Notes under the pieces: model-generated
Databases searched by the model: none
Told to the model about the DNA's origin: nothing
The model's input: the letters and a program-made list of their open reading frames with translations, nothing else
Made by a program: the position numbers and the translations under genes
Part shown: positions 7,110-13,006 of the stretch, in pieces
Position numbering within the stretch: the stretch's first letter is position 1
How the letters are laid out: every line of letters starts with the position of its first letter
From: a virus
Length of the DNA stretch: 41,016 bases
Virus record (IMG/VR): IMGVR_UViG_3300035156_000377
Span: 1-41,016 of that record
Strand: one strand, 5' to 3'

Positions 7110-7879
7110 TGTCGCCCGCGCAACGCGCCTTTGCACGCAAGACGTCCGCCCTCGCGGCGGCGTCGACCGCGGCCAGCTCGGCCCTCCAGCGCCCGACGTC
7201 GGGCGCGGAGGCGACCGAGTATGAGCTGCAGCGCGAGCGCTTGGGTGTCGATCTCAAGCGGCTTAAGGACATTCAGTCGATCGAGCGCAAGATCGACCTG
7301 AAGCGCGAGCTCATCGCGAACTACGATCCCTGGGTGGGGGGTGTCCTGGACGCCGCGGCCAATGGCGCGCGCGGCGTCCAGGACGACATCCTGACCCACA
7401 TGATGATCTGGCGCATCGACACGGGCGACTTCGCGGGCGCGCTCCCGCTGGTCGAATATGTCCTGCGCTGGGGCCTCGCCCTGCCCGAACGGTTCAACCG
7501 CACCGCCGCGACCATGATCGCCGAGGAGATTGCGGAAGCAGCGTTGAAGCGGCTCGACCAGGGTGAGGAGCCAAAAGAGGGGTTCGTCGATCTCGAGCTG
7601 TTGCTCACGATCGACGATCTCACCGCCGATCACGACATGCACGACGAGGTGCGCGCGAAGCTCGCCAAGGCGCTCGGCCGCGAGCTCGCCCGCCAGGCCG
7701 ACGCCGCGGACGAAAGCGCCGACGGCCCCGCCGGCGGCAAGCGCGCCGCGATCGAGGCCGCGCTCAAGCGCCTCCGCCGCGCCCGCGAGCTCAACGCCAA
7801 AGCTGGCGTCAAGAAGGACATCGAACGCCTCGAGCGCGAGGCGAGGAAGCTGACGGAGAGCACTGATGCGTCAAGTTAA
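7109..7879 (+). CDS. M: Terminase small subunit (P2 M family)
   Basis: A 256-aa protein matching P2 gpM, the DNA-recognition subunit that directs terminase P to cos. The core LKDIQSIERKIDLKRELIANYDPWVGGVL is diagnostic, followed by a helical MMIWRIDTGDFAGALPLVEYVLRWGL. The charged alanine/arginine-rich C-terminus (about 190-250) probably contacts P or the procapsid. Its start overlaps the capsid stop. A small membrane-peptide ORF begins inside its 3' end. Confidence 0.92.
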   Translation: MSPAQRAFARKTSALAAASTAASSALQRPTSGAEATEYELQRERLGVDLKRLKDIQSIERKIDLKRELIANYDPWVGGVLDAAANGARGVQDDILTHMMIWRIDTGDFAGALPLVEYVLRWGLALPERFNRTAATMIAEEIAEAALKRLDQGEEPKEGFVDLELLLTIDDLTADHDMHDEVRAKLAKALGRELARQADAADESADGPAGGKRAAIEAALKRLRRARELNAKAGVKKDIERLEREARKLTESTDASS

Positions 7880-7955
7880 ACGGCTGCTCGCACTAGCCGC
7901 TCTCCCCTTCTTCGCCCTGTATCTGGTCATCACCGGTCAGAAGCTCGGCGGCTAA
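7866..7955 (+). CDS. 29-aa putative membrane peptide
   Basis: A short ORF beginning with ATG 14 bases before the end of M, in another frame. It encodes a basic start (MRQVKR) followed by a single hydrophobic helix (LLALAALPFFALYLVIT) and a short polar tail. The clean positive-inside layout and tight coupling to M suggest it is real, but at this length chance is a serious alternative. No family is recognised. Confidence 0.45.
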   Translation: MRQVKRLLALAALPFFALYLVITGQKLGG

Positions 7956-7961
7956 CCCATC

Positions 7962-7986
7962 CGAGCCAAAGTACCACTTTGGCTCG
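7962..7986. repeat. Dispersed palindrome, copy 1
   Basis: A perfect inverted repeat with 11-bp arms and a 3-base centre, core CCAAAGT-ACC-ACTTTGG. It lies between the 29-aa ORF and gene L. It belongs to a six-copy family in this window (9182, 28503, 32389, 32977, 34223). The centre AAGTA-N2-ACTT is largely constant, while the outer stem pairs change together. Confidence 0.85.
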
Positions 7987-8132
7987 CCCGATCTCGCCCC
8001 GCGGCGCTCGGGGGCGGAAGATGAAGGAAGCAGCCGGGTTTCATCCTCTCGGCCTGCGCTCCGCTCAGCTTCCTCACCCCCGTTAACCGCGGGCGGACCA
8101 CCAAGCAGGAGGGCGCAAGCCTCGACACTATC
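7987..8132. other. Leader region upstream of L
   Basis: A spacer between the palindrome and head completion gene L with no credible ORF. An AGGAGGG sequence near 8107 is a strong Shine-Dalgarno match, but it lies about 20 bases from the chosen L start. The true start of L could therefore differ, or this ribosome binding site could be inactive. Confidence 0.4.
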
Positions 8133-8609
8133 ATGGCCGGCTTCGTTTCCTCTCCGCCCGCGCCGGCCAGTCCTCCGGGCAGCTTCGTCGATCACGATGG
8201 CTGGTACCCGGGTGCCGACGTCAACGGACTCCGCGAATGCGTGCGCCTCGGATCCACGGTCACGCACCCGCGCCTCGTCGAGGCGATCCTGGGCGCGATG
8301 ATCACTGTCGGCCGCGATCTGCGCCGGTGGAAGGCGGCCCGCGTCGCCGCCGGCGCCGCCACCCTCGCCGCCGTCGAAGACCAGGACGAGATCAACTTCG
8401 AGCCGGAGCTCGTCCACCTTTACCGCCGCGCGGTGTACGCCTTCGCGGCCGCGGACCTGGTCGAAACGCACCACGACATTACCGCCACGCCCGACGGCCG
8501 CGATCGCAACGAAACACGCGCGCTGTCGGCCGACGATCACCGCCGCAACGGCCTCCACGCGATCCGCGACATCCTGCGCGTCGGCCGCACCGTCGTGGAG
8601 CTGATCTAG
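8133..8609 (+). CDS. L: Head completion/stabilisation protein (P2 L family)
   Basis: A 158-aa protein. Typical L features are the early DGWYPGADVNGLRECVRLGSTVTHPRLVEAILGAM and the late HLYRRAVYAFAAADLVE, LSADDHRRNGLHAIRDIL and GRTVVELI. gpL completes filled heads at the portal so that tails can join. Its stop overlaps the GTG start of X. The first 15 residues are proline-rich and not family-typical. Confidence 0.9.
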   Translation: MAGFVSSPPAPASPPGSFVDHDGWYPGADVNGLRECVRLGSTVTHPRLVEAILGAMITVGRDLRRWKAARVAAGAATLAAVEDQDEINFEPELVHLYRRAVYAFAAADLVETHHDITATPDGRDRNETRALSADDHRRNGLHAIRDILRVGRTVVELI

Positions 8610-8815
8610 TGATCGTCCGCGCCCATGCCGGCGAGAGCCTGGACGCCCTGGTCTGGCGCGAGCTCGGCGCGGTGCCCGGCGCGCTCGAGCAGGTGCTCGA
8701 GGCGAACCGCGGCCTGGCCGCGATTGGCGCCGCCCTGCCCGAAGGCATCCCCGTCACCTTTCCCGAATTTGCGCCGGCGCCCGCCGAACTCGAACTCGTC
8801 CAGCTCTGGGATTGA
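8609..8815 (+). CDS. X: Tail protein X (LysM-like)
   Basis: A 68-aa protein of the P2 gpX family. It has the pattern of a small LysM-like fold: RAHAGESLDALVWRELG at the start, VLEANRGLAAIGAALPEGIPVTFPE in the middle. It is an essential small tail component, probably near the baseplate hub or tail terminus. The GTG start shares its first base with the last base of the L stop codon. Confidence 0.88.
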   Translation: MIVRAHAGESLDALVWRELGAVPGALEQVLEANRGLAAIGAALPEGIPVTFPEFAPAPAELELVQLWD

Positions 8816-8818
8816 ACC

Positions 8819-9166
8819 TTGCCTGATCCACACATCCAGTTCGTCGAAGCGGTGCAGAGCTTCCTGTCCGCAGTGACGCCGGCGGCGCTCGGCTCGGCCG
8901 TCTACCAGGCCTATCAGCGCGGCCTGGGCTGGCGCGATCGAATGATCCAGTTCGCGGTCGGGATCTGCGTCTCCTACTTCGTCACCGGCATCGTCATCCA
9001 CGCAATGGGCTGGTCCGATTTCGCCGCCCAGGGCGTCGGCTTCGTGATTGCCCTGTTCGCCTTCGAGGCCACCCCGAAATTCACCCGCGCCGCCGCCGAC
9101 GCCGTTGCCGCGCTCCCCGGCCAGATCGGCGCCTGGTTCGGCCGCAAAACCGGAGGGAAGGAATGA
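8819..9166 (+). CDS. Phage holin
   Basis: A 115-aa membrane protein using a TTG start four bases after gene X. Hydrophobic segments occur near residues 25-35 (weak), 45-60 (FAVGICVSYFVTGIVIH) and 70-85 (GVGFVIALFAFEA). It ends in a charged tail (FGRKTGGKE). Its position directly before a lysozyme, with a 4-base overlap, marks it as the holin that times lysis by permeabilising the inner membrane. The sequence alone would only say small membrane protein. Confidence 0.8.
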   Translation: MPDPHIQFVEAVQSFLSAVTPAALGSAVYQAYQRGLGWRDRMIQFAVGICVSYFVTGIVIHAMGWSDFAAQGVGFVIALFAFEATPKFTRAAADAVAALPGQIGAWFGRKTGGKE

Positions 9167-9690
9167 GTGCTTTCTCGGGTCCCCGCCAAAGTAGCACTTT
9201 GGCGGGAAGTTACGATCGCGCGGTCCTGCGCGCCGAGCTGCGGCGCGACGAGGGCGAGCGGCTTCGCGTCTACCGCTGCACCGCCGACAAGCGCACGATC
9301 GGCGTCGGCCGCAACCTCGACGATGTCGGCATCAGCCCGGTCGAGACGATCCGGCTCGGCATCACGGTCGCGACCTGCCTCGCCCGCGGCATCACCTCCA
9401 CGCAGTCGATGGCGCTGCTGGATGGCGACATCGACCGCGCGGAGGCCGATCTCGACCGGCACCTGCCCTGGTGGCGCCGGCTCGACGGCGTTCGCCAGCG
9501 CGTGCTGCTCAACATGTGCTTCAACCTCGGCGTCCACGGCCTGCTCGGTTTCCGCAACACGCTCGGCATGATCGAGCGCCGCCAGTTCGCGGCCGCGTCG
9601 GAGAACATGCTCCTGTCCAAATGGGCGCGCCAGGTCGGCACGCGCGCGCAGCGCCTGTCGCGGATGATGCGCACGGGAGTTGCCGCATGA
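9163..9690 (+). CDS. Endolysin, GH24 lysozyme
   Basis: A 175-aa muramidase that cleaves the glycan strands of peptidoglycan. The GH24 triad E-x8-(D/C)-x5-T is present as E30, C39 and T45 within RRDEGERLRVYRCTADKRTIGVGRNL. The family stretches LLNMCFNLGVHGLLGFRNTL and WARQVGTRAQRL follow. No signal peptide is visible, so export needs the holin. Residues about 6-16 come from an in-frame copy of the dispersed palindrome and form an N-terminal extension ahead of the catalytic fold. It overlaps the holin by 4 bases and the i-spanin by 4. Confidence 0.93.
   Translation: MSAFSGPRQSSTLAGSYDRAVLRAELRRDEGERLRVYRCTADKRTIGVGRNLDDVGISPVETIRLGITVATCLARGITSTQSMALLDGDIDRAEADLDRHLPWWRRLDGVRQRVLLNMCFNLGVHGLLGFRNTLGMIERRQFAAASENMLLSKWARQVGTRAQRLSRMMRTGVAA
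9182..9206. repeat. Dispersed palindrome, copy 2, inside lysozyme gene
   Basis: A perfect 11-bp-arm inverted repeat with centre AGC, core CCAAAGT-AGC-ACTTTGG. It is read in frame near the lysozyme N-terminus as GPRQSSTLAGS, without interrupting the gene. It belongs to the same family as the copy at 7962. Confidence 0.85.
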
Positions 9691-10163
9691 AGACGCTCTT
9701 TCTTCGCCTGATCGGGGCCGTCACCGGCGCGCGCAGCTACATCACCCTGCTGCTCGTCGCCGGCGCCTGCGCCTGGTTCTACGTCCAGTTCGAGCAGGTG
9801 AAGCGCGATCGCGACCATCTGCTGCAGACGGCCGAGCTCGCCTGCGTCGCCGCGGGGTCGAGCCTGGCGCCCGCGCCGCGCAAGCGCCGCGGCGAATTGT
9901 GCATCGAGCGCGTCCGCATCCTCGCTGCGATCGAGCGCGACACGGCCAGCGCCAGCGCGGCCGCGATGAGCGAGGCGCTCGCAACTCACGAACGAAAAAC
10001 GGCGATCGATGCCGACGCGGCCCGCCGCTCGGCCGAGGCGGCCCGGGCGGCCGCGAACAAGATGGAGAAGCAGAATGCGCAAGTGGGCGGGGATGATCGG
10101 GTTGGTGCTGCCTGGTTTGATGCTCTTAACGACGTTGCCGGGCTGCGCGCACCGGGCAGCTGA
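9687..10163 (+). CDS. Inner-membrane spanin (Rz-like)
   Basis: A 158-aa type II membrane protein. It has one N-terminal helix (about residues 15-34, SYITLLLVAGACAWFYVQ) followed by a long charged alanine-rich helix with coiled-coil character (QFEQVKRDRDHLLQ, then RTASASAAAMSEAL to NKMEKQNAQ). This is the layout of Rz-type i-spanins, which with a lipoprotein partner fuse inner and outer membranes in the last step of lysis. The partner gene begins inside its 3' end in another frame, as in many phages. Confidence 0.8.
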   Translation: MKTLFLRLIGAVTGARSYITLLLVAGACAWFYVQFEQVKRDRDHLLQTAELACVAAGSSLAPAPRKRRGELCIERVRILAAIERDTASASAAAMSEALATHERKTAIDADAARRSAEAARAAANKMEKQNAQVGGDDRVGAAWFDALNDVAGLRAPGS

Positions 10164-10401
10164 CCCGTCGCCGGCGCCGGCGATCGTCACCGTCAAGGTG
10201 AAGGACGTGGCTCCCGCCGAGCTGACCCGCTGCCCCGAACGCCCGGAGGGCTTTCCGGCCGACGCGACGGCCGTGGTCGGCGATCCGGTTCGCGCCGCGA
10301 TCATCCGCCTCGCCCAGTCCTACGCGGCGGTAATCGGCCAACTCGAGCGGCTGATCGAATGGAACGCGCCGGGCAGCTGCTCGCGCGAATCACGGCCGTG
10401 A
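10075..10401 (+). CDS. Outer-membrane spanin lipoprotein (Rz1-like)
   Basis: A 108-aa lipoprotein starting within the i-spanin gene (89-base overlap, different frame). The signal peptide MRKWAGMIGLVLPGLMLLTT is followed by lipobox LPGC, with the lipidated cysteine at residue 24. After it comes a proline/alanine-rich segment and a helical C-terminus (AAIIRLAQSYAAVIGQLERL). At about 85 mature residues it is longer than lambda Rz1. The desaturase-like gene begins within its last 43 bases. Confidence 0.8.
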   Translation: MRKWAGMIGLVLPGLMLLTTLPGCAHRAADPSPAPAIVTVKVKDVAPAELTRCPERPEGFPADATAVVGDPVRAAIIRLAQSYAAVIGQLERLIEWNAPGSCSRESRP

Positions 10402-10940
10402 CCGGCTCGTCCATCATCGGCCAGCTGCTGATCGGTTGGCTGCTCGCGGATCTGATCGGCGGCTTCCTGCATTGGGTCGAGGATCGCGTGCTGACTGAGG
10501 ATATGCCGCTGCTCGGCGCCGCGATCGTGCGGCCGAACCGGCGTCATCACCGCGAGCCGCTCGCCTTCACCGCCGGCAGCTTCCTCGATCGCAATCTGTC
10601 GACCTTCATCGCCGCCGGCGCCGTCTCACTTGTTTGGGCGATGCTGCTCGGCCCGTCGCTAATCTGGGCTGCGGCCACGCTCGGCGGCGCGATTCAGTCG
10701 ATCGTCCACGGGCTCGCGCACCAGCCCAAGGCGGCGGTCGGCCCGCTCCGCGTGCTCCAGGAAACCGGGCTGATCCAATCGCCCAAGCATCACGCCCGTC
10801 ACCATCGGCCGCCGTCCGACGGCCGCTATTGCATCCTCACCGACTGGCTCAACCCAAGCCTGGACGCGATCGGCTTCTGGACGTCGCTCGAGCGCGCCCT
10901 TCTCCGGCTCGGCTTCCGGCCCAGTCTCGGCGAGCGCTGA
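10359..10940 (+). CDS. CarF/TMEM189-family lipid desaturase homologue
   Basis: A 193-aa membrane protein of the CarF/TMEM189 (Kua) family, whose known members form the vinyl-ether bond of plasmalogens by desaturating plasmanyl-ethanolamine. The histidine clusters line up: LIGGFLHWVEDRV (H38), VRPNRRHHREP (H63, H64), VHGLAHQ (H117, H121) and LIQSPKHHARHHRPP (H144, H145, H148, H149). The family ending DGRYCILTDWLNPSLDAIGFW follows. Two hydrophobic segments lie at about 18-38 and 82-118. It overlaps the o-spanin by 43 bases and abuts R, so it is co-expressed with lysis and tail genes. The family call is firm. The substrate in a phage setting is unknown. Confidence 0.85.
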   Translation: MERAGQLLARITAVTGSSIIGQLLIGWLLADLIGGFLHWVEDRVLTEDMPLLGAAIVRPNRRHHREPLAFTAGSFLDRNLSTFIAAGAVSLVWAMLLGPSLIWAAATLGGAIQSIVHGLAHQPKAAVGPLRVLQETGLIQSPKHHARHHRPPSDGRYCILTDWLNPSLDAIGFWTSLERALLRLGFRPSLGER

Positions 10941-11425
10941 TGCTGAAGCCCGATCTCCTTCGCGCCGCCCTGGTCGCGGCCGTGCCCGAACTCGCGCGGG
11001 ATCCGGACAAGCTCACCCTGTTCGTCGAGAAAGGCAGGATCGCGGCCCGCGCCGGCCCGGCCAACGGCTTCGAGTACCGGTACCAGCTCCAGGCCGTGCT
11101 GCTGGACTTCACCGGCCATCCCGACGCGGTGATGATCGCGGTGCTCAACTGGATCCACGATCACCAGCCCGAGCTGCTGCTCAATCACAGCGCCGGCAAC
11201 GAGGCGATCAGCTTCGACGCGGACATCATCGACGCGGACACGATCGATCTCGCGTTCACGCTCGAGCTCAATGAGGCGGTGACCTTCACGCCGCGCGCCG
11301 GCGGCGGCTTCGACGCGACCCACCGCGGCGAGCCGCAGCTGGTCGACGCGCTGCTCGGCATCCCCGCCACCACCCTGCTCGGCGAGATCTATCTGGGCGG
11401 CGAACTCATCGTTCAGGCGGGCTGA
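10940..11425 (+). CDS. R: Tail completion protein R
   Basis: A 161-aa protein of the P2 gpR family, needed to finish the head-proximal end of the tail. Characteristic stretches are MLKPDLLRAALVAAVPEL at the start, YRYQLQAVLLDFTGHPDAVMIAVLNWIHDHQPELL in the middle, and FDADIIDADTIDLAFTLELNEAV late. Its ATG overlaps the preceding stop by one base, and its own stop overlaps the start of S. Confidence 0.92.
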   Translation: MLKPDLLRAALVAAVPELARDPDKLTLFVEKGRIAARAGPANGFEYRYQLQAVLLDFTGHPDAVMIAVLNWIHDHQPELLLNHSAGNEAISFDADIIDADTIDLAFTLELNEAVTFTPRAGGGFDATHRGEPQLVDALLGIPATTLLGEIYLGGELIVQAG

Positions 11426-11901
11426 TGGCCGACGAAGGCATGGAGCGGATCGAAGCCTGGGCGGGCGCGCTGCTCGCCAGGCTCGATCCCGGCCAGCGCC
11501 GCGCGCTCGCCCGCCGCCTCGGCATCGCCCTTCGACGCTCGCAAAGCCAGCGGATCGGCGCGCAGCAAAACCCTGACGGTTCGGCCTATGAGCCGCGCAA
11601 GGAACGCCCGCGACTCCGCGAGCAGCGAGGCCGCGTCCGCCGTCAGGCCGGCGCGATGATGCGCAAGCTCCGCCAGGCGCGCCTGCTGAAGGTCGATGCG
11701 TCGGCCGAGCAGGTCGCGGTCGGCTATGCCAGCGCCGCCGTCGCCCGGGTCGGGCGCGTCCACCAGGGCGGCCTCCGCGATCGCGTAGAGCGCAAGCGCG
11801 GCGCGCCGGAAGTGACCTACCCCAAGCGCGTCCTGCTCGGCTTCACCGAAGCCGATTCCGGCACGATCATGGACATGATCCTTGAGCAGCTGCAGGCCTG
11901 A
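11425..11901 (+). CDS. S: Tail completion/virion morphogenesis protein S
   Basis: A 158-aa protein of the P2 gpS family that works with R in tail completion. Family marks are RLGIALRRSQSQRIGAQQNPDGSAYEPRK and the C-terminal VTYPKRVLLGFTEADSGTIMDMIL. It is basic in the middle. It is the last gene of the segment before an activator dyad, which begins seven bases after its stop codon. Confidence 0.92.
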   Translation: MADEGMERIEAWAGALLARLDPGQRRALARRLGIALRRSQSQRIGAQQNPDGSAYEPRKERPRLREQRGRVRRQAGAMMRKLRQARLLKVDASAEQVAVGYASAAVARVGRVHQGGLRDRVERKRGAPEVTYPKRVLLGFTEADSGTIMDMILEQLQA

Positions 11902-11907
11902 TCCGCC

Positions 11908-11934
11908 CTGTTGTAACCGCCGCCGATACAACAC
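11908..11934 (+). promoter_or_regulatory. Late-activator dyad, fibre-block promoter
   Basis: The motif is TGTTGTA-N11-TACAACA, with the same central 11 bases as the other copies. It lies in the S-to-11977 gap and its centre is about 56 bases upstream of the first codon of the next gene. It is proposed as the binding site of the Ogr homologue encoded at 32491. No Shine-Dalgarno sequence of standard spacing precedes the downstream ATG, although GGAG occurs about 19 bases before it. Confidence 0.8.
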
Positions 11935-11976
11935 CGCGCGCTAGCCCGGACGCAGGAGCCGCGGCGACATGGCGCC

Positions 11977-12273
11977 ATGCTTAAGTTCCGCCCTGGTGAG
12001 ACGCCGAGCTGGCAGCTCAAGTTGTTCGCGGATGACGCCGAGACGACACCACTCGACTGCCGCGGCGCGCTGATCGACATCGTCGCGACTAGTCTGCCGT
12101 TCACGCCGGCGGTTGCTTGGTTTTCGGCATCGCTGGGCGTCGCGGACCTAACCATCACCGAAGTGCAATCGTTGTCGCTCGCCGCCCGCACGCGTCACTG
12201 GCTGCGGATCCGTGTCCGATCCGCAGCTGGCGAGGTGACGATCTTCGACGACGTGCCCGTGCGCATCGAATGA
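11977..12273 (+). CDS. Small beta-rich phage structural protein
   Basis: A 98-aa protein, mostly predicted beta strands (WQLKLFADDAETTPLDCRGALIDIV, then HWLRIRVRSAAGEVTIFDDVPVRI). The layout resembles the small N-terminal beta-sandwich units seen on phage baseplate or fibre-attachment proteins, but I cannot name a family. It is the first gene behind an activator dyad, so it should be made late. It overlaps the next gene by four bases. Confidence 0.6.
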   Translation: MLKFRPGETPSWQLKLFADDAETTPLDCRGALIDIVATSLPFTPAVAWFSASLGVADLTITEVQSLSLAARTRHWLRIRVRSAAGEVTIFDDVPVRIE

Positions 12274-12461
12274 GCGCGATCCGCTTCACCCGCGACGGCC
12301 CGGTGCTGCGCATCGCATCCGCCAGCGAGCCGATCGGCACGATCCGGTCCGAACGCCGCGGCTCGATTCGCATCTCCAGGCTTGGCCAGCGCGGCCGCGA
12401 CGGTGCCTCCGCGGAAGTCACGACCGATCTGCTCGCCCACTATCTGCTCGCCCGAACCTGA
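12270..12461 (+). CDS. Small hypothetical protein, possible fibre linker
   Basis: A 63-aa protein with short beta-like strands and a GQRGRDGASAEV stretch recalling collagen-like or fibre-hinge segments. Its start overlaps the previous stop, and the next gene follows after 11 bases. Co-transcription with beta-rich and fibre-like genes suggests a virion part. No family is recognised. Confidence 0.5.
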   Translation: MSAIRFTRDGPVLRIASASEPIGTIRSERRGSIRISRLGQRGRDGASAEVTTDLLAHYLLART

Positions 12462-12472
12462 AGGACCGGACC

Positions 12473-13006
12473 ATGTCTCTCGACGCCAACCTGCTCGCGC
12501 TGCTCACCGCTGTCGGCGGCGACGTGAAATCCCTCCGCCTTGCCGATGGAGATCTGTCACAGCTCGCCACCACCGCGAAGAACAACCTCGTCGCCGCGAT
12601 CAACGAGGTCTACGGAATGGTCGGTTCAGCCGGCGCCGCGATCAATGATACCGCCGGCGATGGCGCTACCGCCGTGACCTGGTCGGCGAACAAGATTTAC
12701 GATTCGATCGAGGCGGCGCGTGTTGCGCTTCGCGACGAGCTACGCGCCGGCGCCGGCGCCGCGCTCGACACGTTCGCCGAGGTTGCTGCCGCGCTCGCTG
12801 CCGACGATACGGCCGCGGCCGCGCTGGCGGATGCGGTCGCTAAGCGTATCCGCTTCGACGCTGCTCAAGTGCTCCAAGATACGGAGAAGGTGCAGGCGCG
12901 ATCCAACATTGGCGCGGCCTCGGCCGCCGACCTGACCGCACTCACGACGGCGGTCGGCAACACCGAGCAGGATCTGGTCGCGGCTTACAATCTCGCGAAG
13001 GCGTAG
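12473..13006 (+). CDS. Tail fibre-like protein
   Basis: A 177-aa protein with two motifs common in phage fibre shafts: LATTAKNNLVAAINEV near residue 31, and LQDTEKVQARSNIGAAS near residue 133. The latter resembles the QARTNIGA-type repeat of tail fibres. The middle is alanine-rich and probably helical (RAGAGAALDTFAEVAAALAAD). It may be an accessory fibre or adaptor. AAGGACC shortly before the ATG is a plausible ribosome binding site. Confidence 0.6.
   Translation: MSLDANLLALLTAVGGDVKSLRLADGDLSQLATTAKNNLVAAINEVYGMVGSAGAAINDTAGDGATAVTWSANKIYDSIEAARVALRDELRAGAGAALDTFAEVAAALAADDTAAAALADAVAKRIRFDAAQVLQDTEKVQARSNIGAASAADLTALTTAVGNTEQDLVAAYNLAKA

Follow-up and report, generated by a model that had tools for sequence, protein, structure and literature searches.

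Why should a bacteriophage keep a homologue of a membrane lipid desaturase among the genes that end its infection cycle? The question is raised by a complete virus record from IMG/VR, 41,016 bases long (the window, that is, the whole stretch of DNA analysed here), with a P2-like layout. Its minus strand has the portal and terminase genes, and its plus strand has those for scaffold, capsid, terminase small subunit, head completion, holin, endolysin and spanins, followed by gpR and gpS. The answer which we favour is that the phage PF10520 protein, referred to below as Kua, is probably a di-iron membrane enzyme made late in infection, encoded by an accessory gene and modifying an abundant non-ether lipid of the host.

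The Kua/CarF-type Lipid_desat gene occupies positions 10359–10940 of the plus strand and encodes 193 aa as called. The ORF is intact and its product matches Pfam PF10520 (Lipid_desat) over residues 27–182 with 119.3 bits (E 2.5e-34), far above the gathering cut-off of 26.4 bits, which bears out the first-pass annotation of a CarF/TMEM189-like homologue at this place. The NCBIfam CarF model NF045946 gives 89.9 bits, missing its equivalog cut-off of 500 bits, and the PF04116 (FA_hydroxylase) match of 27.5 bits is under the 31-bit gathering cut-off. All 19 aligned members match PF10520, and 18 of them also match PF04116 at E up to 0.01. Human TMEM189 is 30% identical over 172 residues; its sequence, which also served for numbering, was consistent with the published residue positions in every case examined. 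The dN/dS values of 0.13 (L007/L008, two IMG/VR relatives) and 0.19 (Erythrobacter phage/L012) indicate that Kua is under purifying selection and is a real, maintained viral gene. A chance ORF is ruled out by the 119-bit match together with this selection.

Kua is surrounded by late genes, all on the plus strand. Upstream are the genes for the holin (8819–9166; phrog_2359, E 4.9e-16), a lysozyme-type endolysin (9163–9690; PF00959, E 9e-9), the putative i-spanin (9687–10163; an N-terminal transmembrane helix followed by a hydrophilic domain) and the putative o-spanin (10075–10401; a lipoprotein with the lipobox LPGC), the latter embedded in the i-spanin gene. The spanin assignments are based on architecture and on weak matches of the o-spanin to Rz-like spanin PHROGs (E 0.0018 and 0.0079), and for the i-spanin also on position and on its homologues located upstream of the relatives’ Kua genes. 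Downstream are the genes for the P2 gpR tail completion/terminator protein (10940–11425; PF06891, E 1.5e-45), whose start overlaps the Kua stop (TGATG at 10938–10942), and for the P2 gpS tail completion protein (11425–11901; PF05069, E 3.3e-34).

Kua, described earlier as translationally coupled to the o-spanin gene, does overlap it, as the start at 10359 lies within the o-spanin ORF. A GTG at 10398 is a serious alternative start, because the Kua genes of the relatives begin at the o-spanin stop or right next to it and encode about 178–187 aa (180–187 aa in the six P2-like relatives). The candidate true start is the plus-strand GTGA at 10398–10401; it would overlap the o-spanin stop by 4 bases and give a product of 180 aa. 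A scan of positions 7800–12500 for sigma-70 consensus sites revealed no promoter-like site. Since the genes overlap and no sigma-70-like promoter was found, Kua is likely expressed only late, along with its neighbours, and not from a quiescent prophage.

The place of Kua is strictly conserved in one lineage. The order holin, endolysin, i-spanin/o-spanin, Kua, gpR, gpS was found in 7/7 P2-like phages and prophages that have the gene (the window, L006, L007 and L008 from IMG/VR, and prophages G339, G832 and G833), and o-spanin homologues are present in all seven. In L006–L008, an insert of 2.6–3.3 kb with an Ig-like/SGNH-like ORF, which the window lacks, separates Kua from gpR (L008:8455-11514, L007:8455-11475, L006:3885-6338). 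The insert protein has Ig-like repeats, and its C-terminal part resembles SGNH hydrolases (GDS motif); L007 and L008 have a winged-helix-like ORF there as well. The window has a lysozyme as its endolysin and L006–L008 an amidase; endolysins were thus swapped between carriers while the adjoining spanins and Kua stayed. Among the P2-like carriers, Kua is the best conserved of the six proteins compared (mean identity 0.60 versus 0.44–0.50), and its pairwise identities track those of R, J, S and the holin (r 0.81–0.88, Mantel p 0.0085 or less). Such strict placement in seven phages argues that the P2-like lineage, at least, tolerates or profits from a timing linked to lysis.

Outside this lineage, the neighbours of Kua are different. 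In the Cbk-like Erythrobacter phage vB_EliS-L02, a relative with 53% identity, annotated as hypothetical, is located between PhoH and portal genes. This phage is lytic, and the words “lipid” and “desaturase” are absent from the paper describing it (PMC9127768). Two Mu-like prophages have Kua inserted at two different late-region sites: in G286 it lies between terminase and portal, while in G846, where terminase and portal are adjacent, it follows the counterpart of a morphogenesis gene situated further downstream. The IMG/VR relatives comprise the P2-like L006–L008, L009–L012, which are kin of the Erythrobacter phage gene, and also L114/L115; a 595-kb uncultured phage has a relative with 29.5% identity. 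The association with lysis genes, suspected from the window, therefore held in the P2-like carriers and failed in the Mu-like prophages and the Cbk-like phage.

The gene is rare in the genomes searched. PF10520 was detected in 11 of 396 Sphingomonadales genomes: the two strong matches belong to prophages (G339, P2-like, and G286, Mu-like), and the other nine to a distant chromosomal type. Searching 250 genomes of the genus of G339 added the P2-like prophages G832 and G833 and the second Mu-like prophage, G846. Matches above the PF10520 cut-off occurred in 4/385 Alphaproteobacteria genomes and 4/398 Pseudomonadota genomes. No relative was found in the plasmid records searched or in a profile search of genome contigs with the Kua alignment, and the proteins of G339 and L108, used as queries in viral searches, had no match. 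In the tree, the P2-like, Mu-like (two prophages) and Cbk-like genes form one clade (support 98/96), and the chromosomal type of Sphingomonadales falls outside it (100/99). Because genes from the three phage types share a clade, a single phage gene pool with transfer between the types fits these data. Recent capture of a host gene was rejected, given how distant the chromosomal clade is.

This distribution bears on the possibility that Kua is a dedicated lysis factor, whose lipid remodelling would ease spanin-driven membrane fusion or time lysis. The o-spanin overlap and the junction kept in all seven P2-like carriers speak for such a role, which we nevertheless consider unlikely, since clade members in Mu-like and Cbk-like phages are located away from lysis genes, the divergence of Kua correlates with that of the o-spanin most weakly among the five genes compared (r 0.45), and the junction may merely be a tolerant insertion site. 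The spread of the gene over phage types with different lysis contexts also argues against a role needing spanins. An enzyme that changes lipids before lysis, in step with the spanins, and so lowers the barrier to fusion of the inner and outer membranes is quite unlikely; if it existed, it would add an enzyme to the holin, the endolysin and the two spanins as a fifth lysis component. Since none of 80 P2-like capsid loci of GTDB r220 has the gene, and since its contexts in Mu-like and Cbk-like phages differ, we regard Kua as late-region cargo with a stable lysis-gene linkage only in P2-like carriers. Sphingomonadales phages thus share a mobile late gene that only the P2-like lineage has fixed at the spanin/gpR junction.

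The chemistry of the enzyme can be approached through its predicted structure. The AlphaFold model (seven sequences; pLDDT 83, pTM 0.73) is confident and mostly helical. Foldseek found nothing significant in the PDB and two viral proteins at E under 0.001, one of which is a Lipid desaturase domain protein of Harvfovirus (A0A3G5A308, BFVD). The best PDB fold match in VIA-align is Scs7p, the yeast ceramide fatty acid 2-hydroxylase (4ZR0/4ZR1; Z 7.1, rmsd 4.3 over 145 residues), and the next unrelated row has Z 4.0; for a mostly helical model, a Z of 7.1 may reflect a common arrangement only. Sphingomonads contain glycosphingolipids, and the protein might be a lipid hydroxylase rather than a desaturase, acting, for example, on ceramide or on the 2-OH fatty acids of sphingomonad sphingolipids. 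The fold match and the sub-threshold PF04116 match shared by nearly all members point in this direction. We find such an activity unlikely, however, because the PF10520 score is far above that of PF04116; moreover, no PF10520 relative was found among PDB chains by sequence, and Scs7p may be first only for want of a closer structure.

A benefit to the lysogen is more doubtful still. Envelope-modifying morons are well known, and the occurrence of Kua in prophages as mobile cargo, typical of many morons, would agree with superinfection exclusion or lysogenic conversion through altered membrane lipids. The overlapping late genes and the lack of a promoter-like site in the scan suggest instead that the gene is silent in the lysogen, and the carrier from Erythrobacter is a lytic phage. 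PADLOC gave no match, which also led us to reject an anti-phage defence gene.

The residues of the active site define the membership of the protein more closely. Its putative metal ligands are H38, H63, H64, H117, H121, H145, H148 and H149, which together with D42 span positions 10470–10805 of the plus strand. Each of the 23 aligned members has all eight His, and 22 of them have the Asp; L012 (4271-4825), otherwise conserved, has Glu in place of the family’s essential Asp (HWWEER). For PEDS1, these eight His and the Asp (mouse D100, human D99) are indispensable (PMC8960569). PEDS1 also has a ninth His (human H130, mouse H131, CarF H113), whose position is taken by G73 in the window protein and by G, A, S, R, C or T among the other proteins of the phage clade. 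Of the histidine clusters first reported as complete, the eight essential His are thus intact together with the Asp, and the PEDS-specific ninth is replaced. Human F117 (mouse F118) corresponds to N60, and Asn is found throughout the phage clade; as mouse PEDS1 without F118 keeps 6% of its activity (PMC8960569), the chemistry could differ from that of PEDS1. Plant and Alphaproteobacterial homologues without the ninth His did not complement a carF mutant (PMC9131029). Since the eight His and the Asp are kept while the ninth His and the Phe are replaced, the sequence places the protein within the desaturase family and outside the plasmanylethanolamine desaturases.

The ether-lipid chemistry supposed initially is accordingly not supported: that Kua is a true plasmanylethanolamine desaturase producing plasmalogens (vinyl-ether lipids) in the infected cell is highly improbable, since its 90-bit CarF homology, its likeness to human TMEM189 and the intact essential residues are outweighed by the absence of both the ninth His and the Phe from every phage-clade member, by the score far below the NF045946 cut-off and by the failure of an Alphaproteobacterial homologue to complement CarF. 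A separate observation concerns the 595-kb uncultured phage (LR756511), whose 152-aa PF10520 protein (L005:4983-5441) differs from the other phage proteins in having the Phe as well as the ninth His of PEDS1, and might be a better candidate for a viral plasmalogen-type enzyme.

Our preferred reading, a late-made accessory enzyme acting on a non-ether lipid, builds on the family match, the intact ligand set, purifying selection, the conserved place in P2-like carriers and the spread over three phage types; from these we infer late expression, catalysis, a lipid substrate and a benefit late in infection. The Kua gene is probably translated from a late operon with the capsid, lysis and tail-completion genes, and the product would be an integral-membrane di-iron enzyme of the PF10520 (Kua/CarF/FAD4) family. 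Using O2 and host electron carriers, it probably desaturates or, less likely, hydroxylates an abundant lipid of the host membrane at the cytoplasmic face, and this substrate is probably not an ether lipid. In this reading, the gene is an accessory late gene (“moron”) common to P2-like, Mu-like and Cbk-like phages of Sphingomonadales, which the P2-like lineage has kept at the spanin/gpR junction. The gain for the virus may be that lysis becomes easier, that the membrane better fits late assembly or that competitors are excluded.

That selection maintains a PF10520 gene at the spanin/gpR junction of a temperate phage lineage, and that this gene has moved between three types of phage from a single bacterial order, would mean that a late change in membrane lipids pays. 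This raises the question of whether membrane chemistry, beyond the protein machinery, sets the efficiency of the last lysis step, or whether it serves some other late step. Our search of the open-access literature found no paper linking PF10520, Kua or a lipid desaturase domain to phages. Virus-coded lipid desaturases are already known, as is a giant-virus PF10520 protein.

Among the known systems, CarF and TMEM189 (PEDS1) share with the window protein the PF10520 domain, the eight His, the essential Asp and the predicted membrane location. The viral protein is distinguished by its length (180–193 versus about 270 aa), its missing N-terminal part, the absence of the ninth His and the Phe, and a score below the NF045946 cut-off. 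FAD4, the plant phosphatidylglycerol delta-3-trans desaturase, is also a PF10520 protein and likewise lacks the ninth His (PMC9131029). Where FAD4 and PEDS1 share a conserved Phe, the phage clade has Asn; FAD4 is compared here by description rather than by sequence. Chromosomal Sphingomonadales proteins (L095–L103) have the family and the ligand set in common with the window protein and differ by a length of about 235–260 aa, an identity of around 24% and the motif DFKNHHPRPDALGRR. Chromosomal PF10520 proteins with this motif (L095–L103, L123–L130) occur in a few percent of Sphingomonadales genomes.

The yeast ceramide hydroxylase Scs7p is the best fold match to the model, but it has only 14% identity and the PF04116 cut-off is not reached. 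The Harvfovirus protein is a viral PF10520 member with a similar predicted fold; its identity is 22%, and it belongs to a giant virus of eukaryotes, unlike the phage studied here. Virus-coded membrane lipid desaturases have been presented as auxiliary metabolic genes, namely the Arctic vFADs (PMC7300359) and the cyanophage enzymes cited there (Roitman 2018). As far as that account goes, the Arctic vFADs are stearoyl-CoA-desaturase-like proteins of another histidine-motif family, the known viral enzymes are described as aiding the stress tolerance of the host, and neither they nor the cyanophage desaturases are placed in a lysis cassette, whereas Kua is a PF10520 protein which, in P2-like carriers, adjoins the spanins.
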